Part shown: piece after piece, positions 3,254 to 23,130 of the stretch
Layout of the letters: the number at the start of each line of letters is the position of its first letter
Position numbering within the stretch: position 1 is the stretch's first letter
NCBI GenBank assembly: GCA_943704525.1
Contig: CALSCQ010002229.1
Coordinates: 5,001-29,287 of the forward strand
DNA length: 24,287 nt
DNA from: Pigoraptor vietnamica
Taxonomy: Eukaryota; Opisthokonta; Filasterea
Reading direction: 5' to 3'
Position numbers and translations under genes: made by a program
The notes under the pieces: model-generated
Database searches by the model: none
What the model saw: the letters and a program-made list of their open reading frames with translations, nothing else
Told to the model about the DNA's origin: nothing

Positions 3254-6200
3254 TCACTTGTTGTTCACGAGAGAGAGAGGCCGCCGACGCGGCCGGTGTT
3301 CCAGCTCGCCGGCGTCAACGGCCGATCCCTTTGTCCTTAGGGGGACGTTCGAGCGCAGCTGTTTCATCGGCGGCTCGAAATCGTCGTCCGAATCGAGAGC
3401 ATCTTGGCGCTGCGAAGCAGTCACTTGCGCACGAGCCGGGGAGCGCACCTGAACCGGCTGAGCCGGCGGCGGCGGCGGCGGGCAACTCGTGCGTATGGTC
3501 TTGGTCGCCCCATCAAGGGTAGCCACTGCCGCCAGCAATCCGCCCGGCTGCCGCGGCCTTGCCAGCCCAAGCGTCCTCTGGCGCTTGATGGCAGGCGACG
3601 CCAGCTGCTTGCTTCCATCGCGCGAAGCATCCAGAGCAGTCCCAGCCGCCGAGCCCGCTGTCCCGTCCCCCGCCGCGAGCAGCACTTCGGCGGTCCGCTT
3701 CTTATTGGACGATGGTAGACGCAGAATATTGGACGAGAACGGCCATTGCGTCCGTTGCGCCGCCCGCACGCCGTCCCAACCCGTCGCAACTGCCGGCGAT
3801 GCGTTGCCTGCCGTCGCCTCACGCTGCACGCCGTCCCGACCCGTCGCAACTGGCGCTGCGTTGCCTGCCGTCGCCTCGCGCCGCACGTCGTCCCGACACG
3901 TCGCAACGGGCGCTGCGTTGCCTGCCGTCGCCTCGCGCCGCACGTCGTCCCGACACGTCGCAACGGGCGCTGCGTTGCCTGCCGTCGCCTCGCGCCGCAC
4001 GTCGTCCCGACACGTCGCAACGGGCGCTGCGTTGCCTGCCGTCGCCACGCGCCACACGTCGTCCCGACACGTCGCAACGGGCGCTGCGTTACGGGCCGCC
4101 GTCACCCCGCGTACCATGCCCATAGTGGGACGTGACGCGAGCTCATACTTGTCGCCGCTCGCCGATACAATGGCATCAGCCGGAGCACGAGGCATCCCCT
4201 CCGACTCGCCCAGCGCGACAGAACACACATCATACACGATCGCGTCGAGCCCTTCGAGAGCATTGTCGCCACGCACATGGCACGCGAGCTCGGTGGGGTC
4301 GTCATACGGTGCCATTGCATCAGACGCGTCATTCTGCTCTTGCGTGCCAAGCCGCGCCTCGCCGTCGTCTTCACCGGGCGGTGCTGGCACACGGTCTGCA
4401 CAGGCATTCTCACTGGGGGCCGGCCGCAGATCCTCCTTGAGCGCGTCGGAGCGCAGCACCCCAGTCGCCCTCGGTGCCGCAAGCTCGTTGTGGTAGCCCA
4501 CGTCTTCCGGACGCAGCGTCGAATTGTCGACATCGCAACCGTCGACGGCCAGTAGAGAGCCGGACATTGTCGCACTCGTCTCACCAAGCAACGCCGGCAG
4601 ATCGCTGGCTGACGCGCCGCCGCCGCCATCCAGGGAGCCATCGCCTTTACATCGTCTCTGGCGTTGGAGGCCACCCGTCGCGTCCACTCGCTTGGCGAGT
4701 CGACTGTGCAAACCGTCAGGGTGCGGCGCATCCGCCCTACGCTTCGCCCTCGGTGCCGCAAGCACGGGAACGGCGGCAGGGCTGCGCCGTGTACGCGTCT
4801 TTGGCCACTCGAGCCCATCCGCAGACGTCGGCGCACGCTGTGGCAGGTACGCCGCAAATGTCGGCGGGTTCGTCGTCTTGTTGCTCGAACCGCACTTGTA
4901 CCAGAACGCCGGTCGCCGCACGCCACCAGTGTCCGCCGCGTCGGCCGGCGCAAACTTGCCTGGCTTGAGGCCCCCGAACACGCCCGTGCACGACTGTCCT
5001 GACGCAGCGACGCAATTGGGCGCCCGGCATTGCAACCTCATCGGGATCCCCGGCGTCTGCGGCGACGGCTCCAGCACGACCTCGAACGGCCGTGCCTTCC
5101 GCCGAGCAGCCGACGCCGACGGACTGTCATCCGCAGTCGCGCCGCTGCTGATCACCTCCACGGGCAACGAAAGACCGCAAGAGTCGCACGCGAAATATTG
5201 CCGCTCCACGTGCCTCTCGTCGAAGAACGGCGGCGAGAGGACAATGTCCATGGAACAAGGCGCGCCGCACTGCGGGCACAATACGTCCCCATCGTCGTCG
5301 ACGCCGCCCGGCCCCGGGACGCCGCTCGCCGCCGCAGCATCGCTGTCGCTGCCGCGTGTCTCGCCGCCACTGCAGTCCGCCCGCCGTGGAACACCACCCT
5401 CACAGGCGGCGCCGTCGTCGTCGGAAGCCGCCCTCGAAGGAGCGCCGGTTTTGCCCGCCACCGCAGCGTTCGCCGGTCCCGCATTCGCGCTGGTAATCGT
5501 GCCATCGACCGCCACCGCCGGCCCCCGCGCGGTCCCGGCGCGGCGGGCGCTCGACCACTCCATCCCATCCGCCGACTCCGGGGCATAGGCGGGGACGTAC
5601 GCAGTAAATTTGGCGGCGGCGCCATCCGTGCCCTTTTCCCCGCTCGAACCGCACTTGTACAGAACCGCAGGCCTCCACACGCCGTCGACACACCCGTCGC
5701 CCGCGCCAGGGGCGTACCTGTCCGTTCGGAAAATGTCGAGCGTCGCCATGCACCCGGGCCCGCCCCCGCATCGCTCAGCGCGGCACCGCGCCCTCAGTGG
5801 GATCCCGGGCATCGCCGGCGACGGCTCGGCAACCGCCTGAAACCGCCGCGCCTTCCGAATCGCAAATGAGGGCGCCGGCGCCGACCCCCCGGCGCAAGGA
5901 GCATCCCCGACGGCAACGGGAAATGACAGCCTGCACGCGTCGCACGCAAAAAACTGGACATCCATGCCGGCCCTCTTGTCCCGGTACGCAGGGCTCAGCA
6001 CCCTCGACAGCGAACACGCCGCGTGGCACTTGGGGCACTCGATGCCGTCACCGCCATCGTCGCCCGCATCGGCTGCCGCACCCGCAGCCTCGCCCGCCCA
6101 CTCCATCCCGTCGGCCGTCGTTGGCGCCCGGCGCGGAACGTACCCCGTGAACGTCGGCCGCTTGGCCTTGGGCAGGTCCCCCGACCCGCACACGTACTCA

Positions 6201-9200
6201 AACGCCGGCCGCCGATGATGCCTGCCCTCCTCGGCGTCCTCCGGCGCGTACTTGCCCCCCTTCACCTTGCCCAGCGTTGCCTTGCACTCGGCCCCAGGCT
6301 TCGCGGCGCAGTTCGGCGCCCGGCACCGCACCTCCCGCGGAATCCCCGGAGTCGTCGGCGAGGGCGCTTTCACGCCCGTGAACGTCCGCGCCCGCGGCAG
6401 GTGCTGCAACGAACCTGTCGGCGGCTCCGTCTGCTCTGCCACCTCGACTGAAAGCGAAAGCAGGCAGCGCTCGCACGCGAACAACTGCCACTTTGCCCCG
6501 CTCTTCTTGTCCGTGCGCACCGGCGACAGAACCACAGACAGCGAACACGCCGAACCGCACCCGCGGCATGCCACCATGCCCTCCGCCGCACGCGCCGCCG
6601 CCGCCGCAGCAGCCGGCAGCGACGACAAGACTGCTCGTGGCCCCCGGCTCGGTGGCAGCGCCCCTTCCTGCTGCTGCTGCTGCTGCTGCTGCACGTCCGG
6701 CGCCGAAGCATTCCCCTTGCCCGCCCCTGCCAATGCGTCCTGTTTGTGGGCATTCAACCCACCGAGCGCTCCGCCCAACAGCTCGTCCTTACGCTGATCG
6801 GCGGGACTGCCGGTGCCGACCTGTCCGTTGTCGAGTGCACCCCGATCGTACTCGTGCCCAGCGAGCGCACCTTGCTCCTGCATCACGCTGCCGCCGACGC
6901 CCACGCCACCCGTCTCCTCTTGGTGCCAATGAGCGTCGCGGTGCGCGTCGCCGCCGCAGCCCGTCAGAGCCGTCGCCGGCCCTTGGGAAAGATGAGCAAC
7001 ATGGCCGTCCAAGGCGGCGCACGTCACCTTGGAAAGAACGCCGCCGCCGCCGCCGCCGCCGCTGCCAACCACGCCGACTCCGGGTGATGTCCGTCGGTCC
7101 GCAGCACTAGAAATGGACGGAGAACCCACCCTCGTCACGTCGTCGGTGATGCCGGAGCTCGCCTCCGTGCAGAGGTCAATGATGTCCGTCGACGGCGCTT
7201 TGCAGAGATCGATGACAACTGCAACAGCACTCGGCTTCTTCGCCAGCTTCAGGCGGGAACGCTTCGCCGCGGCGTCCTCTCCACGTGCTGTTGCGAGCCC
7301 GGGGCCGCCCCCCACCCCCCTGGAGAGAGCGTCAACGAGCGCATCCTCCTTTTTGGGGAGGGCGTCAACGAGCGCATCCCCCTTTTGGGGGAGGGCGTCA
7401 ACGAGCGCATCCCCCTTTTTGGGGGAGGGCGTCAACGAGCGCATCGCCCGCCTCCTCGGCGAGAGTGGCGTCGTCGAACCCGTCGTCCCCCGCCAGCGCA
7501 AGCATGCTGCCGTGCGCGTCACCCAACGCAAGCGCATTGCCGAGCACTCTGCCCGTCTCCTCGGAGCAGAGAGCGTCGCCGCGCACGTCGTCCATCACCG
7601 GCGAAAGCGCACCGCCAGCGCCGAGCGCATCGCCACGCGTACCCTCGGGAGGGTCTGGGCCGCCGACATGAACGCCACCCATCTCCGGCGCAGAATCGTC
7701 GCAGCTCACAGCGGGCTCCTTGCGCCGTGCATCACCCGTCGTCCCCTGCATCAAAGGAGGTGTGCTCGGGCGCACGCGCTTTGCCGAGCGTCCAGCCTCT
7801 CCGCCATCGATATCGTGCACATCGGCGCTCCGCTTTGCAGGCACGTACGCAGCACAAGGCGACGGGGCGTCAGCCACAGCCGCAGTGGCCAACACGCGCG
7901 CGCCCGGAGACCATTCCATCCCATCCGCTGTCGTCGGCGCATAGAGCGGAATATACGCACAAAATTTCGGACAGCCCCGGCTCCGTCCGCTCGAGCCGCA
8001 CTTGTACATAAACCCAGGTCGCCGCATGCCCTCCACAGCTTCGCCCCCTTCCGCGGGCGGCGCGCGCTTGTCCCGTCGGAACGTTCCGAGTGTCGCCACG
8101 CAGTCCACGCCCGTCCCGATAGCGGCGCACTTGGGCGCGCGGCACACGACCCGCAGCGGAATCCCCGGCGTCGACGGCGAAGGCTCCTCAACACCCGCAA
8201 AAGGCCGCGCCTCCCGCCGCCGCCCCAGCCGCCCGCCGCCGTACACTGATGTCGCCGCGGCGGCCGCCGCCCCCCGCGCAACCACCGCAACAGGCACCGA
8301 CAGCCCACACGTGTCGCACGCGAAAAACTGCACCAACTCGCCGACATTCCCACCGTCATATGCCGGCGAAAGCACCCTCTTCAACGAACACACTGCATTG
8401 CACTTTGGGCACCTCGCCTCATCCTCATCCTCCCCCTCGGCAACGCAGCTCGCCCTGACGCCGCCGCCCGTCGGCGCATCAGCCTGCTCCACACAAACCG
8501 CGCCCGACGCACCAGCATCAGCAGCGCGGCTCGCACCCTGACCCCTCCCCGCCGACCGACCACCAACAAGCGTAGGGACCACCTGCACCGCGGGCCACGC
8601 GCGCCCGCAGCTTCCGGCCACTCCATCCCGTCAGCAGTCGTCGGCGCCCGGAGAGGAACGTACCCCGTGAACGTCGGCCGCTGCGCCCTGGGCACCCCGC
8701 CCGACCCGCACACGTACTCAAATGCCGGCCGCCGCATGCCCTCCGCGTCCTGTTCGCGGGCCGGCGCGTACTTGCCCTTCTTCACCTTGCCCAGCATCGC
8801 CTTGCACTCGCCCCCCTTCGCGGCGCAGTTTGGCGCCCGGCACCGCACCACCAGCGGAATCCCCGGCGTTGATGGCGAGGGCTCTTCCACGCCCCTGAAA
8901 GGCCGCGCCTGCGGAAGGACTGGCCCGGCTCCAGCCTCGCTCGCACAGCCAATGGCGACAGCCAGTGACACCGACAGCCCGCAACCGTCGCACGCAAACA
9001 CCTGCCGCTCCGTCCCGCATTCGTCCCGGTACACGGGCGATAGCACGACGCGCAGCAGACACGCACCATCGCATCCGCGGCACACGAACGTTGGGCCACC
9101 GCCCCCGTCGCTGTCGCCCCCTCCACCGGCGCCAGCCGCAGCCGCAGCCGCCACAGCGATCTTGCGAGCCTGCCGAAGCATGTTGCCCCGGATAGGCCCC

Positions 9201-12200
9201 GCCGCCGCCGGTCCCGCAGCAGCAGTCGCCGCGACGCCATCATCCGCACCAGCCGTCGGCAGAGACGCCGCCGGAGCCACCGGCCACCGTCGCCCCAACA
9301 CCACTTCCTCGTGCCGAAGGAGGTGATACCCGTGGCCCATCGTCGCGCACCGGTACCGCAGGAACAGCTGCCGCACGCCATCGCCCTCGACCACCTTCAC
9401 CCCGTCAAACACAGCGTCGCAATCATCCCCGTACTGCGTCGCGCTGACCCGCATCGAAATCGCCTTGAGCCGGCCCGTCTCACGCACAGCAACCGCACCA
9501 GCCTTCTTCCCAGCCGTCGCCCGATCCAGAGCCCGCCAAATCACCTCCCCGCACCTGACGCACTCGTGCAGCTGCACCCCCAAACTCCGCACGACGTCCG
9601 TGAACGCAGGGTGCGCCATAACCGCCCCGCACCTCCCGCACTCGCACTCCACGGCCGTCTTCCCGTCGTGCACGGCGCAATCCACGCTCGCCCGTATCAG
9701 CGACATCTCATCCCGCCCATACGCCGACCCGCTCCGAACCCAAATGATCGCTGGCCCCCGCAGCACGTTCCCCGCCGTCGGCGCCTGCCCGTCGCGAGTC
9801 CGCACGAGGCACCGCGCCCCGCACTTCTCCTTGCCGCACCGGTACAACTGCAAATGGAACAGTGCTGCCCCGGCCTGCACGACGTGCGTTTACATTTCGC
9901 AAGTCAGCCTTCTCTTATTTCAATGAACAAAGACAACAACAAGAAACGATCAGGAAAAAAGCACATACACCCACACGCGCGCGCGCATGCCCACCCACCG
10001 ATCCTTGCAAGGGACAGGCCCCCCTCCCTTCCTCGCGGACCAGAGGCGAAGTCACCCCATCAACACGCATGCAGACAGCGCACACCGCCCAGTCCGTCGA
10101 TTCCGCAGCATGGTCACTGCTGACCGACGTGGCATTATTTCCGCCGGCAGCGACTTCACCATCCAGCCCGCGTACCGAGGTTGGCCCGCCCGAGCGCAGG
10201 TCCTTCACAAACTGACCCCCCGACCGCTCCCAACTGAAAAACGATGGGGCACCACCCCCCGCCGCCCGAGCTCTCGATGCGCACTCCAGCGCGTCCACCA
10301 CTTCGGGAGCCATCCATGGCCCTGCCCCGGCCGCGAACCGTCGCGAATCCTCTTCCACGGCCCTGTTGTGCCCCAACTGCGCCCCGGCGAGGTCGCCAAC
10401 GTGCAGCGCACGTATGCGCATGTACGAGTCGACTAACACTCGAGGAAGGGCACTTTTCTCCGAGAGCGTCCACCCACCCTTTTGGCCAGCTGAGTGCAGG
10501 GTCTCATCGGTGGACTGACGACCACTATCCTCGACGGCGCGCCGCTCCTCCGCCATGTACGAGTAGATGACCGACGCCGACCGAATTCCCCCGAGAACAA
10601 CGTCATCCACTTTGACGTCCTCCATGTAGGTAGAGTCGCTGTGCGCCGGGTCCACCAGGACGCGCGCGACGGCATGCTTTATGGAGCGCGTGAACTCGTT
10701 CGTCGTGACGTTGAGACCGCAGCGAATGTCGGCTTCGTCTGACGGGCATCCGTACACGGGGCACAAGAGAGGTTGGTCCAAGGCCTCGGGCACAATCGTC
10801 GCAGGCCGTGCGCCGCTAAGAACCTCGTGCAGTGGGTAGACGAGCGCCCCACGCATCGCGAGGTAATCGAGGACGAGTGAGACGAGATTGACATCACCGG
10901 TACGCGGCGACTCGACCATAACGCATCGACCCTTGCCGCCGTCAGCAACCTTTTTCTCGTCGGCCACGCGGACGAGCATCGCGAGGGGAAGGCCGCCGTG
11001 CTCCATCGACGAATTGGCCTCCACGTACACGGTCTCGCGTCGGACAAATCGCCCGTTGAGCTCCAGCTCAAAAAGCGCCTCTCTGGAGCCAATGATGATG
11101 TCGCCGACCTTGATGCGGTCGATAACGGACGCCCTCGCAAACGTGTGCGACGACAACAGCAGGCCGATGAGCAGGGTGAGGTCCTTCGGGTGTGTGCGAT
11201 CGCACTGCGACGCCACGCGGATAAGAAGATCGTCTCCGAATAGCTGGGGCTTGAATGGCCGTTGCACTCCCATGCGAACGTTCACGGAGCGGATCGCCGC
11301 AGCCAGCCTGAGGAAAAACCCGTCGACCGACATGTTCTTCTCGGGCCTCACGAGGTTGTCCGAGAATTTCTTGACGAAGGCGATGAGGCAAGACATGTTC
11401 GCCATAGCTGTCATGTACGTGTGCCTGCAGGCCGGGAAAGTAATATGAGCGCAGGCGCGTGCGGGTTCTCAATAAAAAGACGACTCGAGAACTGATGCCT
11501 CTCAAAACATCGTGCAGCGTTGGGGGACGAGAGCAAGAGCGTGCTCACACATGTCAACTAGCACAACAGCGGCGGTATTGCACGCACCCAAGTCCATCCG
11601 GGGATCGGAGAAAGATGTAGAAGCCGACCAGCGTCTCCACCCTGCGAAACGGAATCTCCGAAAGCCATGAGGCCGTAGTACTTTGCCAGCTTGTTCAAAG
11701 CCGACGCCGTCCTGCGCACAATAACCTCTTCGTAGAGCACGGTGTGCGTCTGCACCGATGAAACGACCCTCGACCGCGCGCCGACGAGTAAGCCTCCAAG
11801 GCTCCCCGCACCTAGCGAGGCCGCCGTTCCTGGACGCGAAGCAGGTGCGTCCTGCTGAATCCTGGCTGCGGCCGGCACAGCAGCCAGGATTTTAGCGTGG
11901 AGCGCCAACGCCTCGTTGCGGCCGAGCTTCAGCGACATCCAATCGTCGACGTCGAGCGTCGCCACGATCCGCCCGTTCATTGTCGACGGCACGACCTCGC
12001 CAGCGGAGATAAGGCGCTTCGGCACCCATTGTCCGGCGCTCAAGCGAGACCCAAGGAGCGCGACCGCACTCATTGCCCCGTAGTGGTTTAGCTCCATCCA
12101 CGCGAACACTTGCTCCTCCGAGAGCCGATTAAAGCAGTCAAATCGGACAAACATGTTGCTTCGCACGTCGTCCAGCGTCGCAAGAACTTTGAGCCGCCCT

Positions 12201-13522
12201 TCGGCGGCATTTGGGCATGAAGCACTCGTCATTGTTGGCGCCTCCTCGACGCAGCCGCCCTCGCCGCCGCTGTCGGGAAATAAGCGATCGAGCCAAGCGA
12301 CGCCTCCTGGCGATGAGAAGAACTCGAGCGCTCTGATCTTGGCGAGCACGTCGGCGTCAATGACGTCCACCGCAACGCCGCACCGATACGCAAGGGCCGC
12401 AATGTCGAGCGCGCTATAATCGAGAGGGTCATCTGGAAGGACTCGGCCCTCAAGGTCCTGCATCGCCATCTCGGTGTGCGTGTCGCCCCCCACACTCGAC
12501 GTGTCGCCGGCAGCTGCACTGCCCGTCATGACGGATGCAAGCGTCTCGTCGAGCAAAGTGGCGAAACGAGTCCGGACATCACTAGCGGTGGTCGCGGTCG
12601 CTTTCGGCGGCGGAAGTGCTTCTCCCCACGCCCTCCACAGTCCCTCCATACCCGAGAGACCGCCTAGAGAGCTACGCAACTCGTCACGGAGGCAGAACGC
12701 CGGCCTCTCTTGGCCCAGCACTCCAGCCGCAGCATGGGCGCTCGTGCCGTTCAAACGCAGCTCGGCAAGCGCATTGCGCTTGACCTTGCGTAGTGCGTCC
12801 TTTACCGACTTTGGCAGGCCCCCATCGATCGTGAACACCGGGTCACGTACGACGCCGACGTCACGAGCGGCGTCTTCCAACGCACGGGGTGGCACGGCGC
12901 CGGCGTCTGTCGAGGCGCTTGCGGGCGATTCAGACGGTGCACCTATCCGCGCGGTGACGGTGGAGGCCTTCGCGCTATCGATAGTGCGTTGCATATCGGC
13001 CGTCAGGTCCTCCGCCATACGCGCGCGAAGCTCGCAGTAATGCTCGACACTCTTCGCGCCGGCAGGAACGTGAGGGAATGGGGCCGGAGGGTCAGTAAAG
13101 CCCGCAACCTCCCGGTTCAAAATCTTGCGAACGAGCGCCACAGCCGCGGGTCCTGTCGCGCTCAGCTCGGCCCCAGCATGCTGTCCGTCCCAGCTGCTCC
13201 CGCCCGTGCCCGTACGACTGTTCAAGTCGTTCCCAACAGACATGACCTATGTAAAGGAGTGAGTGTGAGTGGGGTAACGTACGCAAAAGGGGCGCTCACA
13301 GTCAGCGTTGAAAAGGAGAAGATGTGCCAAGGGAATGCACGCACGCACATTGCGGATTGTCCGGGCCCAAATCTCACAGAGACGCATGCGCACACAATTG
13401 TACAGACAGTCGCACACTGCCCAAGACACACAATCACACACTGTCGAAACTAGACGTACATGCATCATGCATTAATTACACACACGTGCACGCACACACG
13501 CACACGCACACGCACAGACACG

Positions 13523-13553
<31 letters not shown>

Positions 13554-13590
13554 ACACACACACACACATACGGCACACCACACACACACG

Positions 13591-13656
<66 letters not shown>

Positions 13657-16600
13657 AGCACACGACACGACAAAAGTACACACATCCTTTGACACGCGCA
13701 CACGAATTGTAAGAAAGAAAGAATGGACGCCCGCGTGGCACACTACGTACCGCACTGGCGAGAAGGTGGGGCTTTCCGGCAATGTAGTGCCAGGCGACGG
13801 TGGCTGGCCGGCGCCACATGAGCACCAAGCACACGTGCACGAGCGCACCGAAGAGAGACCTGTCTTGGCCCGTTGCAAGTCGCGATTCGAGCAGCGTCGT
13901 TGCCGCCAGCTTCCGAATGCCAGGAAGCGCAAACTTCGTGCCCGCAAGGCCACACGAGGCAGCCACGAGCCGCAACTCTCCGCCGTACTCCTTCGCCACG
14001 CGGTTGAGGGCCTTGCCGCTCTCGCCCTCTCGAACGTCCGGAAAGAAGTGTGCCGCCTTTATGGCGCCGAATTCCGAGGCCGCCTCCATGCAGTGCTGGA
14101 GAAATGACCGCCCATCGGCAATCACGCACGACTTTGTTGACGACGGGTCCGCGAACACGTAGCGATCCCCCATCGTCGTCGACGACAGATTCAGCGGTGG
14201 GACAACGGCCACGAGACTCTGCCGATCGTCGTCAGCGTTTCCGCCGCCGTCGCCGTCGCCGATCAACATTCCCGTGAGCCGCAAGAGTCGAAGCAACGTA
14301 CGTCGTCCGCACAGCAGCCAACCCACTTCGCCGAACACTGGCATATCCGTCCGGGTGAGAAGCGCATGCGTACCGCCCTCCATCATGCCTGTCTTCTCGT
14401 GGAGGAAGCGAAGGACAAACTGGTGCCCAAACTGGCCGTTGGAAGACGCGACGTCGCGCAGCAAAAGCCGAACGATCGACGTCCCCCGCGCACAGGACCG
14501 AAACATCGTCACGAAGAACGCGGTATCCTGCACGCACCGCGCCATTCGCCGGAGGCACCGAACGATGGCGTCCGCGATGCACTCGACGTTCTCCGCCCCA
14601 AGCTGCGTCGCCTCCGATATCATAGCGAGCACGTCACCTTCGAGGAGTCGCCGCCGCTCGTCGTCACCTTCACGAATGTCCACGCAATCGCCGGCCGGAG
14701 GTTGCTCGGGCTGCGGACGATCCACCGCCCCGCCACCGCTCCCTCCACGAGGTTCGTCAGCACTCGACAACGCCATGGCGTCGAGCATGCGCTCTACACG
14801 AGCACCCACGTCGCGGACGGACATGAATGCCGGAGGGGACGTCAGGGCCGCGGCGGCCTCTGCGCCTGTCTCAGCAGGGAAAAACTCGGACAGCACGGCA
14901 CGCGCCCCCCTGATGAGCGCAGTCGTCGCAGCCTTCACCCCGCCACACGATGTCCCTCGCGACTCGAGGTTACACAGTTTCGCGACCGCGCGCTCGAGAA
15001 GAGTGAGCACGACTTCCGCGCCGTCCGCAATGCCGAGCTCCAGCGATCGAATGAACCCAGCAAATACGGGACGAGGTGGCGCAATGCTGGACTCGGTATC
15101 GCCGACATCCATACGCAGCCGCTGCGATCGCTTGCAACCCAGCGCTATTGCCGAAACGACGGCAGGATTCGTAAGCGAGCGATGAAACCGGATGCGCCCG
15201 TCCGCCCTGAGCTCGTACAACAGCTGCCGGACGTAGACAGGCTGGTACACAAACCCGTCCTCCGAGATAAGCGACGCGACGTACATGGCGATATCGTTGT
15301 ACGTCAGCACCCTCGCCACCAACTTGTCCTCGGGCACGTCCAACATGGCGCACATCACGTCGGCATACAGGCGATAGGCCTTGTCAAGCTTCCGCCCACG
15401 CAGCGCCTCGCGCTCCCTTACGATTCCCATTTGCCGTGTCACGTCGTCACGCACGGCGGATGCCAAAGCACTATTCCCAACGACAACGCCGCGCGCCGCC
15501 GCCTCCTCGTAATCTGCGTCGTCAGGGTCCTTGTCGGCACCAGCTTCCGACTCGCTGCCGGGGGCAGCTGAAACCGGGGCGGCTGCGCCACGATCCGCAG
15601 ACAGCGACCCACGGGATCCCGCCTTCTTCCACGTTGAGCGCCCAGCGCCGCCGAAGAGGGCGGCCCTCTCACGAACAGCACTATCACGTCTGGATTGGTA
15701 ACGAGCCGTCTGCCCCGACCACGCCGAGCGAAACTTGGCCTCATACTCCTCATTGACGAGCCCCGCGGGAAGTCCCTCAACGCCATTCACGGCGACGCCG
15801 CCGTCACCACCCCTCCCAGCGCCGTCTCCCGCATCCACGCGCACGGCGGCCTTGTCCCAAACGCGGTGTGACACTGCCGTGCGATCTGCCGGCGTCGCAT
15901 CAGTGCCAGCCGCTGCATCAACTTTGCCGTCGTCGTTGTCGTCGGCTTCGTCGACACGGAACCGCCAGTAGTCGTCGACAGCTTCCGCAAAAATGCTCTC
16001 CTCCGAACGCCGCTCCATCATTGCGCGGATGGATCGGATGCGCAGGTAGTAAACGACTTTGAAGAGAAGAACGTCCGCGCAAGCCTCGTCAATCCCACGC
16101 AATTCGTCCCGCACGAGCATTGTCACGAGCGTCGTCGCCCCACCTTTCTCGGCTCGCGGTCCGTCGGCGACTTGGGACAGGCACGCGCGCAGCAAATCCT
16201 TTCCGTTGCACGCTAGGCCTTCGCCAAGCGCTCGCGCTCGCTCGGACCCCGTGTCAAAGCCGCATTCGATGAGCGCATCCTCCCCACAAAGGACGCCCTC
16301 AAACGCCGCAACCGCCGCACGTCGACCAGCGTCATCGTCGGGATACGAGGCCGCGAGAAGGCACCCCTTCACGGCTCCATCAAACGTCCGCAAGAGGTCG
16401 CGGTTGTTCTCCACCCCGCCACCCCTGATCGCAGTGAGAAGGAGAGAAAACGACCGACACGCCTCCGCATCTTCATACGCAGTCTCGTCCAGCGCAACAA
16501 TCTCGACAAACCGCTGCAGCGCAGCCCCGCCGTTCGCGAGCGTGAGAGGGAATGGCGTGTTGAGGATGCACAGGTACTGAAAGCGCCCCAGACGGAACAC

Positions 16601-17485
16601 CGCCGCGTCACGTGATGCAGGAGTAACGTTACTCACTCCAGCGGCCGAAAAGATGGCGTCAACGACCCGTTCAAGCCGGCCCGCGCTCGTCTCGATCACA
16701 GACCGGTAATCCCTGCAATACTCTTCGAGCAACGCAGGAACATGCGCGAGTGCGTCCTCGGCGTTGACCTGCTGTCGTCCTAGAACGATCGCAGTGCATG
16801 CGTCGTCCAGCAGCCTGCATCGGCTCCGGGCGGCGGCGCCGGCTGCATGCTCGAGCTCGCCCGCGGCCGCGCCCGTCTGGCACGACTGGGGCGTGTCAGG
16901 GGCCCGCAGGCATGCAGCGACGTTGCCGGGACCTCCAGGTGTGGATGGCGCCATTGCCGTACGAGCGTGGTCTGCCGGCCGGGTCGGCGCTGAAACGGCC
17001 GCCGTCGCTGCTTGCGCCACGCCGCCGGACCCGCTCGGACTATTGGCGGGCACTGCGGGCATCGAGAGTCCTCCGCCGACAGTCGTCGACGAGATGTGCC
17101 GGTACTGAAGAGGCGTCGGCGCTGGATACAAAGGCGAGGAAGCAGGCAGCTTTGCATGACTTGAATGTCGACGGCCTGTCGACTGTGGCGCAACAGCAGG
17201 CGTCAAACAGGCGAGTTGCAGTCCTGTCGCGTCGGCGCATCCCGCACCAATGAACAACTTGCGCCGGTAAAGGTCGAGAGCTACGTCGAAGGGCGCGCTA
17301 CCAGTGCCGGCTCGGTTGGTAGCCGGCGCCGGCGCACCAGTTACACCGATTTGCGGAGACCTCGTGTCGCCGACTGCGCTCAAACTGTCGACTGCGGCCG
17401 CCGGCGCCTGCGAGGGCAGCTCGCCCGGCGAAGAGACATCCGCGGCGGAGCCGCCGTCGCCCCAGTGAAGTCGGCTCGCCGACAT
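3254..17485 (-). CDS. Giant multi-exon protein of unknown family: recombinase-like segment plus five cysteine-rich modules
   Basis: Not recognised. Inferred exons: 13751-17485, 11588-13246, about 9999-11369, 8537-9874 and 3254-8483. The junctions 13751/13246 and 9999/9874 agree as phase 0 on both sides (donors GTACGT and GTGGGT). The start of the third exon is uncertain: 11369 keeps phase 0, whereas the stronger-looking CAG acceptor at 11403 does not. The frame changes again near 8.5 kb, where a 53-nt phase-0 intron (8484-8536) would account for it, and near 7.41 kb, where one 33-bp repeat unit has an extra base. If it is one gene it encodes about 4,440 residues. The start MSASRLHWG is preferred; an in-frame Met lies 68 codons upstream at 17689. 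The N-terminal 1,800 residues look globular and mostly helical with no motif I know. Then come a tyrosine-recombinase-like segment, an extra CxxC pair region, five cysteine-rich modules, a 19-residue repeat tract and a basic, Pro-rich tail. It could be two or more genes, or a transposon gene. Confidence 0.55.
3753..4094 (-). repeat. 57-bp coding minisatellite, six copies
   Basis: Six head-to-tail 57-bp units start at 3753, 3810, 3867, 3924, 3981 and 4038. The middle three are identical and the outer ones diverge. In the giant gene's frame each encodes a 19-residue unit resembling ATAGNAAPVATCRDDVRRE. Because the unit is a multiple of three and lacks stop codons, other frames are open here too; those are shadows. 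Confidence 0.95.
6668..6691 (-). repeat. (CAG)8 tract encoding eight glutamines
   Basis: Eight uninterrupted CTG triplets on the plus strand read as CAG on the coding strand. They give Gln8 in the linker just before module 3 of the giant protein. Confidence 0.95.
7329..7446 (-). repeat. 33-bp coding repeat with one 34-bp spacing
   Basis: The shared core (GATGCGCTCGTTGACGC on the coding strand) recurs at plus-strand positions 7329, 7362, 7395 and 7429. The spacings are therefore 33, 33 and 34 bp. The encoded unit is GDALVDALPQK. The extra base sits in a C5-T5-G5 homopolymer cluster at 7411-7425 and is where the reading frame changes. Confidence 0.9.
10545..11327 (-). other. Tyrosine-recombinase-like segment in the giant protein
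   Basis: The segment has the order expected of a tyrosine recombinase. First is a helical part resembling a core-binding domain. Next is TFARASVIDRIKVGDI, which lines up with the box I pattern TGLRxSELLxLxxxDI, with the candidate catalytic Arg at 11133-11135. After a variable middle comes VKVDDVVLGGIRSASVIYSY, which lines up with the box II end (LGGWxS, then Tyr). Candidate Tyr codons lie at 10557-10565. A standard HxxR is not evident; the nearest is HAVAR, five residues too far from the GG pair, and the usual Trp or His after GG is Ile. This is therefore either a diverged or inactive recombinase fold or a chance resemblance. Confidence 0.4.
13484..13657. repeat. Simple-sequence block inside an intron of the giant gene
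   Basis: A block of CA-rich sequence, (GACA)n at about 13525-13553, (CA)n at about 13590-13621 and (CAA)n at 13621-13655. It lies within the 504-nt intron 13247-13750. The open frames crossing it are low-complexity artefacts. Confidence 0.9.
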
Positions 17486-17697
17486 AACGGCGCCGTCAGT
17501 CTCACCGGCCTCACGGCAGACCCGACGGGGCCAAACTGGCGTCCGCACTGACCGGCGCGCCGGGCGGCGTCGGATATATCCGGCGCGTGTTGTAATGAGT
17601 GTCGCAACTGTGGGTTTCCGCAGGCTTCGGAAGCTCTCTACTGACAACGGCAGGCACTCAGTGACTGACGGCGGCGGTCCGGGCAGCACTGCCGGGG

Positions 17698-18012
17698 CCG
17701 ACGACGGAACGGCCGTATATGATGTGCATCACTGACGTGAACACAAATTTTGTACGAAGCGAGGAGGATGAATGCACAGTAGCGAGTGTGCGGGGTCCGT
17801 CATGTGATGCTTTCTGATTGGCAGATGCCTATCAGTTGCTGCCATCGACCAATGGAGAATGATCACGCGGCTCAAGCCCCATTCGCCATTGGTCTGACAC
17901 CTGTCAAAATTCTGTCAAATCAAGATTAACGAACGCAAGTCGTTTTTGATACAATAATTAAAATCTCATTTCGAACCAAATTGCCAGAAGTGCGCGCGCG
18001 CTTTTTGGCGGG
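17698..18012 (-). promoter_or_regulatory. Promoter-like region upstream of the giant gene (CCAAT cluster, E2F-like site)
   Basis: Three CCAAT pentamers lie within 76 bp: ATTGG at 17817 and 17888, which are CCAAT on the gene's strand, and CCAAT at 17849. A TATATA-like stretch lies at about 17714-17720. An E2F-type TTTTGGCGGG is at 18003-18012, and a repeated CTGTCAAA is near 17898-17917. The arrangement fits a core promoter reading leftwards. That would place transcription start near 17690 and favour the Met at 17485 over the one at 17689. This is inference from motifs only. Confidence 0.4.
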
Positions 18013-18495: not shown

Positions 18496-18561
<66 letters not shown>

Positions 18562-19380
18562 GCACACACATACGGAGCACGCCCACCAACAAGGAACATC
18601 ACCATAAGTACGTGAACGCCCGGACGCATGCGAATTCCGTAGACACCAGCGTAGACACAACCCACACACCGCACACGCACAAAAACAGCGGCACACACGC
18701 ACACGCACACACAAACACAAACACAAACACAAACACACACAGCGACACGCGCGCAAACAAACGCACAAACGCACACACTGCACCCACGCACACGCGCGCA
18801 CACACACAGGCGCGCACACACACACAGGCGCACACACGCACACACACACGCACACGCACACACACACGCACACGCACACACACAGCGGCACGCGCGCACA
18901 CGCACACACACACGCACACGCACGCACACACAGCGGCACGCGCGCACACGCACACACACACCGACACGCGCGCACACGTACACACACAGAGACACGCGCA
19001 ACGGCAAACGCACACACTGCACACACACGCACCCACGCACCCACACACGCACAAGTGCACACAGTTCCGTCCGTCTGCGTCTGCGACATCTCCTTCATGC
19101 TCACGCTCGCCAAAAAAAAAAAGACTCCTGCGCTCAGAGAGCCCAATGAGTGGGCGTGTCGTGCCGACAATGAGTCCCACCACGCGAAAATGAATCCACA
19201 CCACGGCGGCGCCAACACGCCTTGACACACGCGCGCACAGCACAAACACGCGCGCACGTCCAACCCAAACATCACATAGGTACATGCACACACGCAAGCA
19301 CGCGTACCCATTCGGCGCATACTGACGCCACGCAACGCAACGCACACACAAATAGACACACAGAATGATACACATACACG
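18230..19380. repeat. About 1.1 kb CA-rich satellite, including (AC)31
   Basis: Long purine-pyrimidine alternating sequence with an uninterrupted (AC)31 at 18497-18558. From about 18690 to 19040 there are repeated variants of a CACACAGCGGCACGCGCGCA-type unit. Long minus-strand open frames made of Val, Cys and Arg are by-products of the repeat. Confidence 0.9.
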
Positions 19381-19439: not shown

Positions 19440-19468
19440 CCCCCCCCCCCCCCCCCCCCCCCCCCCCC
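19440..19468. repeat. Run of 29 cytosines
   Basis: An uninterrupted C29 on the plus strand. It may mark true homopolymer or a sequencing/assembly limit. Shorter C runs recur at the right edge of the window. Confidence 0.9.
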
Positions 19469-19708: not shown

Positions 19709-19724
19709 GGATGTAGCTGCCGCG

Positions 19725-19796
19725 TGGCCTCACTGGGGATCGAACCCAGGACCTCATCCGTGTGAAGGACGCGTCATACCACTAGACTATGAGGCC
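19725..19796 (-). tRNA. tRNA-Val, anticodon CAC
   Basis: A 72-nt cloverleaf without intron. Acceptor GGCCTCA pairs with TGAGGCC, with discriminator A. The D arm is GTCTAGTGGTATGAC. The anticodon stem CGTCC/GGATG closes the loop TTCACAC, so the anticodon is CAC (valine, codon GTG). The variable loop is AGGTC, and the T arm CTGGG-TTCGATC-CCCAG is perfect. The internal A and B box promoters match consensus. A valine GTG decoder fits the GC-rich codon use of the neighbours. Confidence 0.95.
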
Positions 19797-19929
19797 CCCT
19801 GCTTTTGCTACGAGTACTTGCTTGCGGCGCGGGATGATAAACGGAGCCCCTCACCTCGTATACTGAACCATGTTACTTGCTGCATAATTTGCCAACTACT
19901 ATCCGCGTCCGCGTCACAAGGAGTTATTA

Positions 19930-20040
19930 CCCGACCTCATCCGCGTCAAGGATTTGTCAAACCAGGTCATAACCCCGTGAAGTGGGCGGGCGCATATATT
20001 GGGGCTCGAAATTAGGACTGCCTCATTGTTTTTGCTGCGA
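19930..20040 (-). pseudogene. Degenerate tRNA-Val-like fragments
   Basis: Bases 19930-19976 resemble the stretch of the neighbouring tRNA gene from variable loop to acceptor. It shares CGACCTCATCCGCGT and AAGGA, then degrades; the loop would read GAC. Bases 20000-20040 resemble the tRNA's T arm (GGGGCTCGAAATTAGGAC) joined directly to an acceptor-plus-5'-flank-like end (CTCAT, then GTTTTTGCTGCGA, against GCTTTTGCTACGA beside the intact gene). Neither forms a cloverleaf. Confidence 0.6.
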
Positions 20041-20196: not shown

Positions 20197-21580
20197 TCAG
20201 TCTTGGTCGGCCGCCTCAATCACGGCGCGCGCGTGCGCATCGGCCTCTGCGATGAGCTCCTTGGACACGAGCTGGTGCTTACCGCCCGTCTCCTCGCACA
20301 CCCACGACATTTCAAGCTCAAACTCCTTGTCCTTCACCTCGTCGTGGATCGTGTGAATGATGCGCGCCACCTCCTTAAGCGCGTCTCGGCACGTGAGCTC
20401 GGACAGCTTCAGCTTCTCCAGCTCGGTCTTGGCCGCCTGCCGTCCCTTGCCAATCGCGCAAGCGTAGTAGCCCTGCATACAACAAAGGTAAATTGAGAAC
20501 GAGTTGCGCGCAAACCATCGAATGTGAACAACAAGGGACCCTTGGCATAGTAACACGAATAATGTGAGGAGCGCATAATCATCATCGAGTGATGTGAACA
20601 ACAGCGAGTGCCAACGCACCCATGACACTCCAGAAGGCTCGATCATGAACAGTTGGGGCCCCTCGTGGTCGTGGGTGCCGAGCATCACGCTCGCGCCAAA
20701 CGGCCGCACGCTCGAATACAGCGTGTAGGCCTGCACAAAGCCCGACACACGCTGCGACAACACCTGCAGAAACATAGAGAGCATGAGGACAGATGCCTTT
20801 CGCCCTGACTCACGCTGCGACAACACATGCAGAAACATAGAAAGCATGAGGAGAAATGCACGGGAAACCATGTCTCCTCTAAGCAAAGCATACATACAAA
20901 TGTAAGGACTGAGATCACACCTTCGCAGGAATGGGTGTCGTGTAAAACGAGCGGTAGTCGGCCGCCTCACTCCGCGCGCGGTTCACAATCTGGCGCGCGT
21001 CGGCAACGAGTCCCGCAATGGCCTAACAGCAGTGCCAATGAGAAGCAGCTCGAGCGACGCAAAACATCGGCGAATCGAGATGCAGTCACGGTCAACATAT
21101 CACCACACGCACCATGCCCACGTGTCGGTCGACTGTGAAGATGCGCTTGTTCGACGTCGGTTCAAGCAGCTTGGAAATCACGAGCTTCTCGACACCAAAC
21201 ACAACGCCATCCTTAACGCGCACACCAACGGCCGTCCTGAAAAAGAACCAGATGAAACGGCATCAGTAAGCAATCTTCAAAAGAAGTGTGTAGTGATCCT
21301 CACTTCTTGTGGTGACACACACCTCTTCTGAGACAGACACCCTACACACACTCACACGTGGGCGCGCGCGCACACACTTTGCGCACTCACCCGCTGTTCT
21401 CGACGGCTTTTGTGGCATACTCGACCTGAAAAACGCGCCCATCTGGCGAAAATGTCGTCGCCGAAAGGTCGTACTGAACACGGAAGGAAGAAGGGAAGAG
21501 GCCGAAACGAACAGATTGTCAGCCCGATGTGCCAGCCACGCATCGCATGCGACACTTACCCCTGTCCCAATGGAGCTCAT
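20197..21580 (-). CDS. PSMA3: 20S proteasome subunit alpha type-3 (alpha 7)
   Basis: Outer-ring alpha subunit of the 20S core particle, which gates and docks regulators and is not proteolytic. Six exons: 21560-21580, 21391-21473, 21113-21236, 20921-21022, 20620-20763, 20197-20472. All junctions keep phase and give 249 residues (human about 255). The N-terminus [20 protein letters not shown] and following [11 protein letters not shown] is the alpha-subunit signature that seals the gate. [61 protein letters not shown] and [20 protein letters not shown] match the alpha type-3 subunit closely. The acidic tail ends in AADQD and is shorter than the long acidic tail of animals. The first exon codes only seven residues. 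It sits head-to-head with the TFIIA gamma gene across 454 bp. A 63-bp tandem duplication overlaps the exon 5 acceptor. Confidence 0.97.
20741..20866 (-). repeat. 63-bp tandem duplication across the PSMA3 exon 5 acceptor
   Basis: Units 20741-20803 and 20804-20866 share most bases. The left unit holds the working 3' splice site (TTTCTGCAG|GTG) and the first codons VLSQRVSG. The upstream copy, inside the intron, has TGCATGTG in place of TGCAGGTG, so its acceptor AG is lost. It still carries a VLSQRESG-like coding remnant. Confidence 0.9.
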
Positions 21581-22034: not shown

Positions 22035-23130
22035 ATGAGCCACGTCATCTACCACAACACGACGCTTGGGGCGACGCTGCAGGACACGCTCGACGAGTAC
22101 ACGGGCAGCAAGCAGATCACCCCGGAGGTCGCCGTCAAGATTCTCGCGCAGTTTGACCGCTCCTTCAAGTACATTATCGAGCGGCAAGTCAAGGATCGCG
22201 TGAACATCAAGGTGCGCTGTCGTCTGTCTGCGCACACTCCTTGCGCGCTGTCGTCTGTCTGCGCACACTCCTTGCGCGCTGTCGTCTGTCTGCGCACACT
22301 CCTTGCGCGGTGTCGTCTGTCTGCGCACACTCCTTGCGCGGTGTCGTCTGTCTGCGCACACTCCTTGCGCGGTGTCGTCTCTCTGCGCACACTCCTTGCG
22401 CGGTGTCGAATCACGTCGGTTGTTCCTACCGCTCCAAGCGCTCCAAGCGCTTTTGTTTGCGGAAAACTGCGGCTGATGAGTGGGGTGTTTTTTGTTCGAA
22501 TGCTTCTGCTTGCGTATGCTCACCGTGCACTTCAACTCTTCCGTCCTCGTGTGCGCGCTGGATGGGCTGCAGGCAAAGCTCAAATCGTACCGCAACTTTG
22601 AGAATGTGTGGACGTTTATAGTCACGGACGCCAAGATAAGGACCGACTCTGGGACGCACGCCTACGACAAGATCCGCATCATCGCCACGGGCTCAAAAGG
22701 TGAGCGCGAGTGCAATGTCTTGTGGCCCATTTGGGCGTGCCTGTGTGTTGCTCTTCTAGAGTTGGGCGAATGGTGTGTCATGTGTGGCGTCGATTGTGTC
22801 GTTGCATGGCTGTTGTACTTTTGGGTGCGCAAGCGTCTGCGTCGCGCGGTCGTTTTCTGTCGTTTATATATGTACAATCATGCGCGAGGACGTCGATTGT
22901 GGCGTTGTCGTTGCATAGCATGGCTGATATATTGTTGGGTGCGCGCAAGCGTAGGTGTCGCGCGGTCGTGTTTTGCTTTGATTCTGTCGTTTATTTATGC
23001 AGTTCTGACCCCTTTGAGTTTTCTGTACCAACGTTTGCCTCAGCCTGTGCATTTCTCACACTTGTTCGTTTAACTGCTGGCAGCGGAAGAGGAGAGCAAG
23101 GATGCCCACCATCATCCCGGCGACGAATGA
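22035..23130 (+). CDS. GTF2A2: Transcription initiation factor IIA small (gamma) subunit
   Basis: TFIIA gamma pairs with TFIIA alpha/beta to stabilise TBP on promoter DNA for RNA polymerase II. Exons 22035-22211, 22573-22699 and 23084-23130 join in phase 0 and phase 1 to give 116 residues (human 109). The N-terminal helical part has YHNTTLGATLQDTLDE and ITPEVAVKILAQFD, then VKDRVNIK at the first junction. The C-terminal beta part has AKLKSYRNFENVWTFIVTDA and DKIRIIATGSK. The short third exon adds an acidic, His-containing tail ending PGDE. The start is the first ATG after the divergent promoter and matches the family's start. Intron 1 (361 nt) begins with a 31-bp tandem repeat. Intron 2 (384 nt) contains an older duplication. 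Confidence 0.95.
22214..22408 (+). repeat. 31-bp tandem repeat, six copies, at the start of TFIIA gamma intron 1
   Basis: Units start at 22214, 22245, 22276, 22307, 22338 and 22369, each like GCGCTGTCGTCTGTCTGCGC followed by ACACTCCTTGC. A partial copy trails to about 22408. Only one or two bases differ between units. The array starts 2 nt inside the intron, directly after the donor GT. Confidence 0.95.
22789..23002 (+). repeat. Imperfect tandem duplication in TFIIA gamma intron 2
   Basis: Bases 22789-22873 and 22892-23002 both begin GTCGATTGTG. Both then contain GTTGCAT, TTGGGTGCGC, CAAGCGT, GTCGCGCGGTCGT and CTGTCGTTTAT in the same order. Small insertions separate the copies, so the duplication is older than the 31-bp array. 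Confidence 0.8.

Follow-up and report, generated by a model that had tools for sequence, protein, structure and literature searches.

A giant gene of Pigoraptor vietnamica with two probable tyrosine recombinase units and an array of zinc modules

Do the long reading frames that follow one another on the minus strand of the window form a single gene, and what would its product be? The window is the whole 24,287-nt stretch analysed here, i.e. positions 5001-29287 of contig C924 in a Pigoraptor vietnamica assembly totalling 32.5 Mb. Six long minus-strand frames are found in it: 13472-17728, 11558-13246, 9915-11468, 8381-9889, 7398-8630 and 3254-7594 (P0001 to P0006, respectively). They are read here as one gene, extending from about 17,485, with the ATG at 17485, to 3,254. 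The reading that we favour, with a probability of roughly 0.6, is that this gene belongs to an old, low-copy, transposon-derived family of tyrosine recombinase (YR) genes, that it encodes a giant recombinase with two YR units and a zinc array, and that it is now resident in the genome and possibly domesticated.

An earlier note on this DNA had proposed looking for further copies in the genome, and two other loci, on contigs C566 and C1268, were recovered by searches with P0003 as well as with P0002; P0001 and P0006 as queries gave no other locus at an expectation (E) value of 0.001. The count of three loci is a lower bound, as are the counts that the search reports, and more copies are possible. 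In a blastp comparison of the long frames at these loci, 11 in number, every block found a partner: unit 2 (E down to 1e-79 between C566 and C1268, and about 1e-25 to the window), the middle region (1e-7 to 1e-4), the zinc parts (weak, 1e-4 and 0.02) and unit 1 (window vs. C1268 only, weak, 0.007-0.01). Identity in unit 2 amounts to about 30% between the window and either paralogue and to 46-48% between C566 and C1268 (29-48% overall). Each member of the family would consist of a variable N-terminus, YR unit 1, a conserved middle, YR unit 2 and C-terminal two-site zinc modules. The upstream part of the window copy is organised as follows.

13751..17485, minus strand: exon 1, from the ATG at 17485, with a variable N-terminal region, then the core-binding-like and putative catalytic parts of YR unit 1
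13247..13750, minus strand: intron 1, 504 nt, GTACGT...TAG, phase 0; position and phase shared with C1268, acceptor at the equivalent point in C566
11565..13246, minus strand: exon 2, middle region and presumed beginning of the YR unit 2 core-binding region (assignment based on position)
11425..11564, minus strand: intron 2, 140 nt, GTGCTA...CAG, phase 2; position and phase shared by all three copies
9999..11424, minus strand: exon 3, putative catalytic part of YR unit 2 and first cysteines of the zinc region
9875..9998, minus strand: intron 3, 124 nt, GTGGGT...CAG, phase 0; window only, paralogues continuous here
8381..9874, minus strand: exon 4 frame (P0004), N-most zinc region and zinc module 1; frame lost near 8600

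GT-AG introns occur in the assembly that hosts the locus. The counterpart of intron 1 in C1268 is 35536/35937, in phase 0; in both copies, the donor stands 11 codons past the assigned tyrosine, and a conserved R-T is found from residue 11 of the next exon. The C566 contig ends inside this intron, so that C566 unit 1 falls outside the comparison; a CAG acceptor, missed by the automated search, was nevertheless read from the sequence at the same protein position, at the contig end. As for intron 2, its counterparts (37558/37764 in C1268 and 10362/10101 in C566) are in phase 2 in all three copies, just before a conserved T-Y. Intron 3 is absent from both paralogues, where recombinase and zinc region run uninterrupted in one open frame (1,474 amino acids in C566 and 1,060 in C1268).

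Because two paralogous loci carry the same blocks and two introns matching in position and phase, the recombinase part and the zinc part are, on the evidence of homologues, a single predicted gene. The earlier note had come to the same view from the junctions 13751/13246 and 9999/9874, which prove to be valid GT...AG introns of 504 and 124 nt, both in phase 0; it had added that homologues might reveal separate genes, and the paralogues, with their conserved introns and continuous frames, show one gene instead. Its proposal of splice signals between the successive frames holds upstream of about 8.6 kb, once the intron 11565/11424 is added, but is not borne out for the last two steps, where frame slips rather than clear introns are seen. 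A row of independent genes without introns, two of them for recombinases and one for a zinc protein, could be imagined from the ATG 3 bases into exon 2 (13243), where a separate start is conceivable; with introns 1 and 2 conserved in position and phase between copies, this arrangement is highly improbable. A split between recombinase 2 and the zinc region is refuted by the single frame in both paralogues.

What does the part upstream of the zinc region encode? A DNA-cutting-type domain next to an expanded zinc array had already been suggested, and both are supported; two tandem YR units, which had been missed, probably make up the recombinase-like segment. Unit 2 is very probably YR-derived and unit 1 only slightly less surely so, the two assignments being supported but not proven. 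Their putative catalytic residues are the following.

Minus strand, unit 1 (P0001, assigned by eye): R1081 (14488), K1112 (14395), R1272 (13915), W1305 (13816), Y1315 (13786)
Minus strand, unit 2 (P0003): R112 (11135), K172 (10955), R296 (10583), W333 (10472), Y349 (10424)

The unit 1 motifs are clearest in C1268, where the frame 35024-35554 reads SFRHAFATHL...YVSLLGHW...ITKHYLAG, i.e. the box II pattern of tyrosine recombinases, which is also visible in the known-YR controls. The box I part of the same unit, NVRGRTLSALRVGDI...GREKT, lies upstream in a different frame. At the end of exon 1, the window has degenerate equivalents, RGTSIVRLLLRDV...HEKTG...IRKLAATTLL...MW...WHYIAG, and R, K, R, W and Y were assigned by eye in both unit 1 copies, that of C1268 being in pieces. 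Concerning unit 2 (exon 3), the consensus is SHPxDLR...GRATVA..LKY.DISF...RDEK...R...GGW...Y. Invariant residues occupy 77 of its 385 gap-free columns, and R, K, R, W and Y, five of the six catalytic positions, are invariant in the three copies, the W being the sole invariant tryptophan; as the register was set partly by eye and partly picked by conservation, this invariance is support and not proof. Cre of phage P1 resembles unit 2 in having R, K, R, W and Y, with W replacing the second histidine, and the alignment of the C1268 unit 2 end over the catalytic end of Cre, which 2 of 1000 shuffles equalled, matches up R, W and Y. Differences from Cre are the very low identity, the replacement of the first histidine of unit 2 by G or S, and longer spacings in unit 2.

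A profile hidden Markov model (the Xer HMM) of 86 known YRs (80 XerD relatives plus XerC, XerD, FimB, FimE, lambda Int and Cre) was searched against 264 sequences, namely 12 real frames, 12 reversed and 240 shuffled ones (252 decoys). The top three were C1268 unit 2 (E 0.005), C1268 unit 1 box II (0.13) and C566 unit 2 (0.48), vs. 3.2 for the best decoy, and the top matches have the box I arginine and RHAFATHL in register. When the three unit 2 copies were compared with the YR set by hhalign, a score of 32.6 was obtained at box I, the best of 60 column shuffles reaching 24.3 and the reversed control 14.1; a hand-cut pair of unit 1 box II segments (window and C1268) gave E 0.001, with no decoys run. 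At the level of the family, sequence similarity to known YRs thus appears modestly above chance; that of the window's frames alone does not. The YR reading of unit 2 in the window is made because this unit is clearly homologous to unit 2 of C566 and C1268.

Several results weigh against the two-YR assignment. With the Xer HMM, 9 of the 12 real frames fail to outrank the decoys; P0003 has no match even at E 1000, and P0001, although in register at box I, has E about 31. The hhalign probabilities are low (17% for unit 2 and 22% for unit 1 box II), the signal of unit 1 box I taken by itself is weak, though in register (E 0.07), the core-binding parts are weak as well (0.024 and 0.31) and are assigned mainly by position, and unit 2 box II was not recovered by hhalign. 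In pairwise tests of the unit 2 box II part, the window copy aligned to XerD with 3 of 1000 shuffles as good, but in a different register, and 13 of the 15 tests, other than this one and that of C1268 with Cre, were unremarkable (169-933 of 1000 shuffles as good); for the whole catalytic region of unit 2, the best of 15 tests had 41 of 1000. Pfam YR models match none of the frames tested, and PF00589 has zero matches genome-wide, vs. 14 positives among 14 control genomes. The AlphaFold2 model of unit 2 is poor (mean predicted local distance difference test, pLDDT, 40.5), and Foldseek found no useful match for it.

The anatomy of the active sites also departs from that of known YRs. The catalytic pentad is RKHRH plus the tyrosine nucleophile (PMC8138268, in the text available), and its first histidine is missing in both units, in unit 2 through replacement by G or S; in the same source, this histidine is less conserved in one prokaryotic YR subgroup and replaced by tyrosine in another. 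The R-K and K-R steps of unit 2 (60-74 and 124-130 residues) and the K-R step of unit 1 (160) exceed those of XerD and Cre (27-28 and 72-91). The R-K step differs between the two units (31 in unit 1 vs. 60-74 in unit 2), and the distance from the second R to W is 33-37 residues in both, vs. 23 in XerD and Cre.

An alternative would be a giant zinc-ribbon host protein that binds DNA or chromatin, in which the likeness to YRs is due to chance or too remote for recombination chemistry. None of the six window frames matches a Pfam family at cut-off, PHROGs gave weak matches only, to families of unknown function, and the failed fold model and the rank of the window frames below decoys point the same way. 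Separate in-register profile signals in two units, and the presence of SFRHAFATHL, LLGHW and KHYL together in one C1268 frame, make this explanation rather improbable; if the protein is functional at all, it would work as a YR.

The zinc region, in the window, forms an array of five two-site modules of about 170-185 residues each, plus a more diverged N-most region, and ends in a long tail.

8591..9100, minus strand: zinc module 1
7890..8423, minus strand: zinc module 2 (frame P0005)
6080..6589, minus strand: zinc module 3 (frame P0006)
5495..6052, minus strand: zinc module 4
4760..5293, minus strand: zinc module 5, fold model with a mean pLDDT of 81.9
3254..4759, minus strand: C-terminal tail, containing a 57-bp minisatellite (3764-4090), with the stop codon at 3254-3256

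Seven modules were compared: all five of the window, and a single one from each of the arrays of C566 and C1268, in which the modules were counted only in part. Eight cysteines are invariant in all seven, in the pattern CxxC...QxFxC...C, then C-x4-C...C...C. The module model is a confident one; its first half aligns weakly with zinc ribbons, and the GRF-like zinc ribbon PF23549 was found below cut-off in one of the seven modules (E 0.0029, 17.8 bits vs. 27). It is a fair inference from these sequences that the modules would bind DNA or RNA. In the coding C-terminal tail, the minisatellite at 3764-4090 consists of 5.7 units of 57 bp, translated into 19-residue repeats such as ATAGNAAPVATCRDDVRRE.

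Is the gene intact? The frame changes from P0004 to P0005 near 8600 and from P0005 to P0006 near 7430, and codon usage switches directly at both points. At the first slip, 115 GT-AG pairs of suitable length are present, none of them backed by a paralogue, and a short intron could lie there; the second falls within the following repeat.

7325..7449, minus strand: tandem repeat of 33-bp units containing homopolymer runs; change from frame P0005 to P0006 located in the first unit

This first unit is one base longer than the following ones. The spliced frame as assembled ends at 8381, which by the coordinates gives about 2,780 residues from the ATG (17485), and the protein of about 4,440 residues in the earlier note is therefore a reconstruction. 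In C1268, unit 1 is spread across two or three frames at about 34,900-35,072. These broken frames, two in the window and those of C1268 unit 1, also count against a working recombinase and could mean decay: the locus would then be a relic, left by a YR transposon or gene family of long standing, and the frameshifts of the window zinc array and of C1268 unit 1 (34900-35072) would be real. However, exon 1 is open over 1,245 codons and the C566 frame over 1,474, and key sites are kept at 29-48% identity, which indicates long selection on the lineage; the relic is disfavoured for this reason. Assembly errors are common in homopolymer runs such as those of the second slip, and the window slips may be either assembly errors or mutations. 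On balance, we regard the relic as unlikely.

A rival reading is a DNA transposon resembling Cryptons that still moves or did so until recently; its transposase would be unusually large, and its own YR would excise it as a circle and reinsert it. The YR-type protein speaks for it, as do the six window frames, in which no reverse transcriptase (RT), RNase H or DDE transposase was matched (except for a sub-threshold Zn_ribbon_IS1595, E 0.03), so that the YR is, as in Cryptons, the sole recombination enzyme found there; the scanned flanking frames have no such match either. Five of the six catalytic positions are kept under the register used, unlike in the domesticated animal YRs described in the available text of PMC3212892, and the GC content of the unit (0.58-0.71 per kb) is mostly above that of the flanks (0.52-0.60). 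On the other hand, only three loci were found (a lower bound), they are 29-48% identical in unit 2, and introns are kept between copies. Neither an empty site nor a near-identical copy of the gene, by which the 4-6 bp terminal direct repeats of a Crypton could be recognised, was found in the assembly searches, with their lower-bound counts. When the flanks of the loci were compared (C566 without its 5' side, C1268 with 641 bases on its 3' side), the matches shared, among the best 40, resemble simple repeats only. Cryptons bear only short terminal direct repeats, and their boundaries are hard to see even in true ones (PMC3212892, available text); the absence of visible termini is therefore no test.

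The neighbours of the locus are ordinary eukaryotic genes, for an enoyl-CoA hydratase, a proteasome subunit, TFIIA-gamma and tRNA-Val, situated 0.6-2.7 kb from it as read from the window. A scan of 11 frames flanking the three copies gave matches to ordinary host families for 7 and no match for the other 4, including both C566 frames; a transposon family was matched by none of the 11. A resident or domesticated gene is preferred to an active transposon because copies are few, no shared flanks are seen, the neighbours are ordinary and duplication has conserved the introns. An element still on the move is accordingly an unlikely explanation, and the gene would most likely descend from a Crypton-like YR transposon and now be resident.

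How close is the family to known eukaryotic YRs? Like Cryptons (Kojima and Jurka 2011, PMC3212892), in which an additional DNA-binding domain is frequent, the family encodes a YR-type protein and has no RT match; unlike in Cryptons, there are two YR units per chain, zinc modules, conserved introns and three old loci without known termini, and the phrase 'two YR' is absent from the main text of that paper. No Pfam match to GCR1_C, DUF3504 or DUF3435 was listed (up to E 5-10), although PF00589 misses these frames too. The family is not filed as a Crypton, in view of these unmatched domains and of only three loci (a lower bound) at 29-48% identity in unit 2; the term 'Crypton-like' in the earlier note is apt as far as a YR without RT or DDE match goes.

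The animal DUF3504 genes (ZMYM2-4, WOC, QRICH1, KCTD1) are alike in placing a YR-derived domain within large host proteins of low copy number, of which some carry zinc fingers and have introns that are conserved. According to the available text of PMC3212892, these Crypton-derived genes have lost the catalytic tyrosine and the second arginine, whereas the present register shows all of R, K, R, W and Y in place, the tyrosine and second arginine in each of the three unit 2 copies. Under that register, the retention would mean catalytic use, or mobility until shortly before decay of the copies set in. Two YR units and C-terminal zinc modules, with a pattern apparently other than that of MYM fingers, also set the present family apart. 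Starship captains (DUF3435; PMC12134995, in part) are eukaryotic YRs as well; no DUF3435 match was listed and no cargo seen here. ALOG/DIRS-1-like YRs combine a YR with a zinc ribbon, but inside the core-binding domain and in an element that encodes RT, according to the available text of PMC3537659, vs. a C-terminal array and no RT match here. A retrotransposon of the DIRS/Ngaro/VIPER type was rejected, as no RT was matched beside the YR in the six frames or in the scanned flanking frames. Searches of open-access papers brought up no eukaryotic protein in which two YR units are joined, nor one that combines them with a row of zinc modules.

Known YRs act as tetramers of separate chains. In the XerC/XerD pair and in TnpA/TnpB of Tn554, two different YRs, likewise on separate chains, serve one site; here, the two would be fused, and pairing would take place within the chain. 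Going by the layout of the protein, the DNA would be held by the zinc ribbons together with the core-binding parts. The linked YR units would each take one arm of a single recombination site, a division seen between the separate chains of XerC and XerD, and each unit would cut one strand through its tyrosine and then rejoin it; two chains would assemble into the four-unit complex. The fullest version of this reading, a new eukaryotic site-specific recombinase that is catalytically alive, with two different YR active sites in one chain as a built-in XerC-XerD-like heterodimer, aimed by a zinc-ribbon array that can be expanded and maintained either by the host or within a transposon lineage of great age, is put forward tentatively and is, as a whole, doubtful. 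A chain with two linked YR units would offer a natural test of the evolution of half-of-the-sites control and of heterodimer pairing, and the zinc array suggests a target recognition that could be changed through module duplication. If the host keeps the gene, it would be a YR-derived eukaryotic gene in which, in contrast to the DUF3504 genes, the catalytic residues have been retained; it would then be a candidate for a role in programmed DNA rearrangement or in the maintenance of DNA.

Some minor features were observed around the gene. About 290 bp beyond the stop codon, at 2933-2966, a perfect 10-bp inverted repeat (CAAAGGTGCT/AGCACCTTTG) has a 14-nt spacer; the same arms (spacer 4-20) occur at one further genomic place, C266:17379-17415. 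On the 5' side, a long CA-rich microsatellite (18497-19063) and a 29-base C run (19440-19468) are present. A proteasome subunit gene lies 5' of the window copy (20200-20982) and also 5' of the C1268 copy (30237-30914), probably by chance. At 19929-19964, about 36 nt of the nearby tRNA-Val (19724-19796) recur in degenerate form (0 of 500 shuffles align as well), and a 31-bp tandem repeat of 6.3 units (22214-22408) lies apparently inside an intron of the TFIIA-gamma gene.

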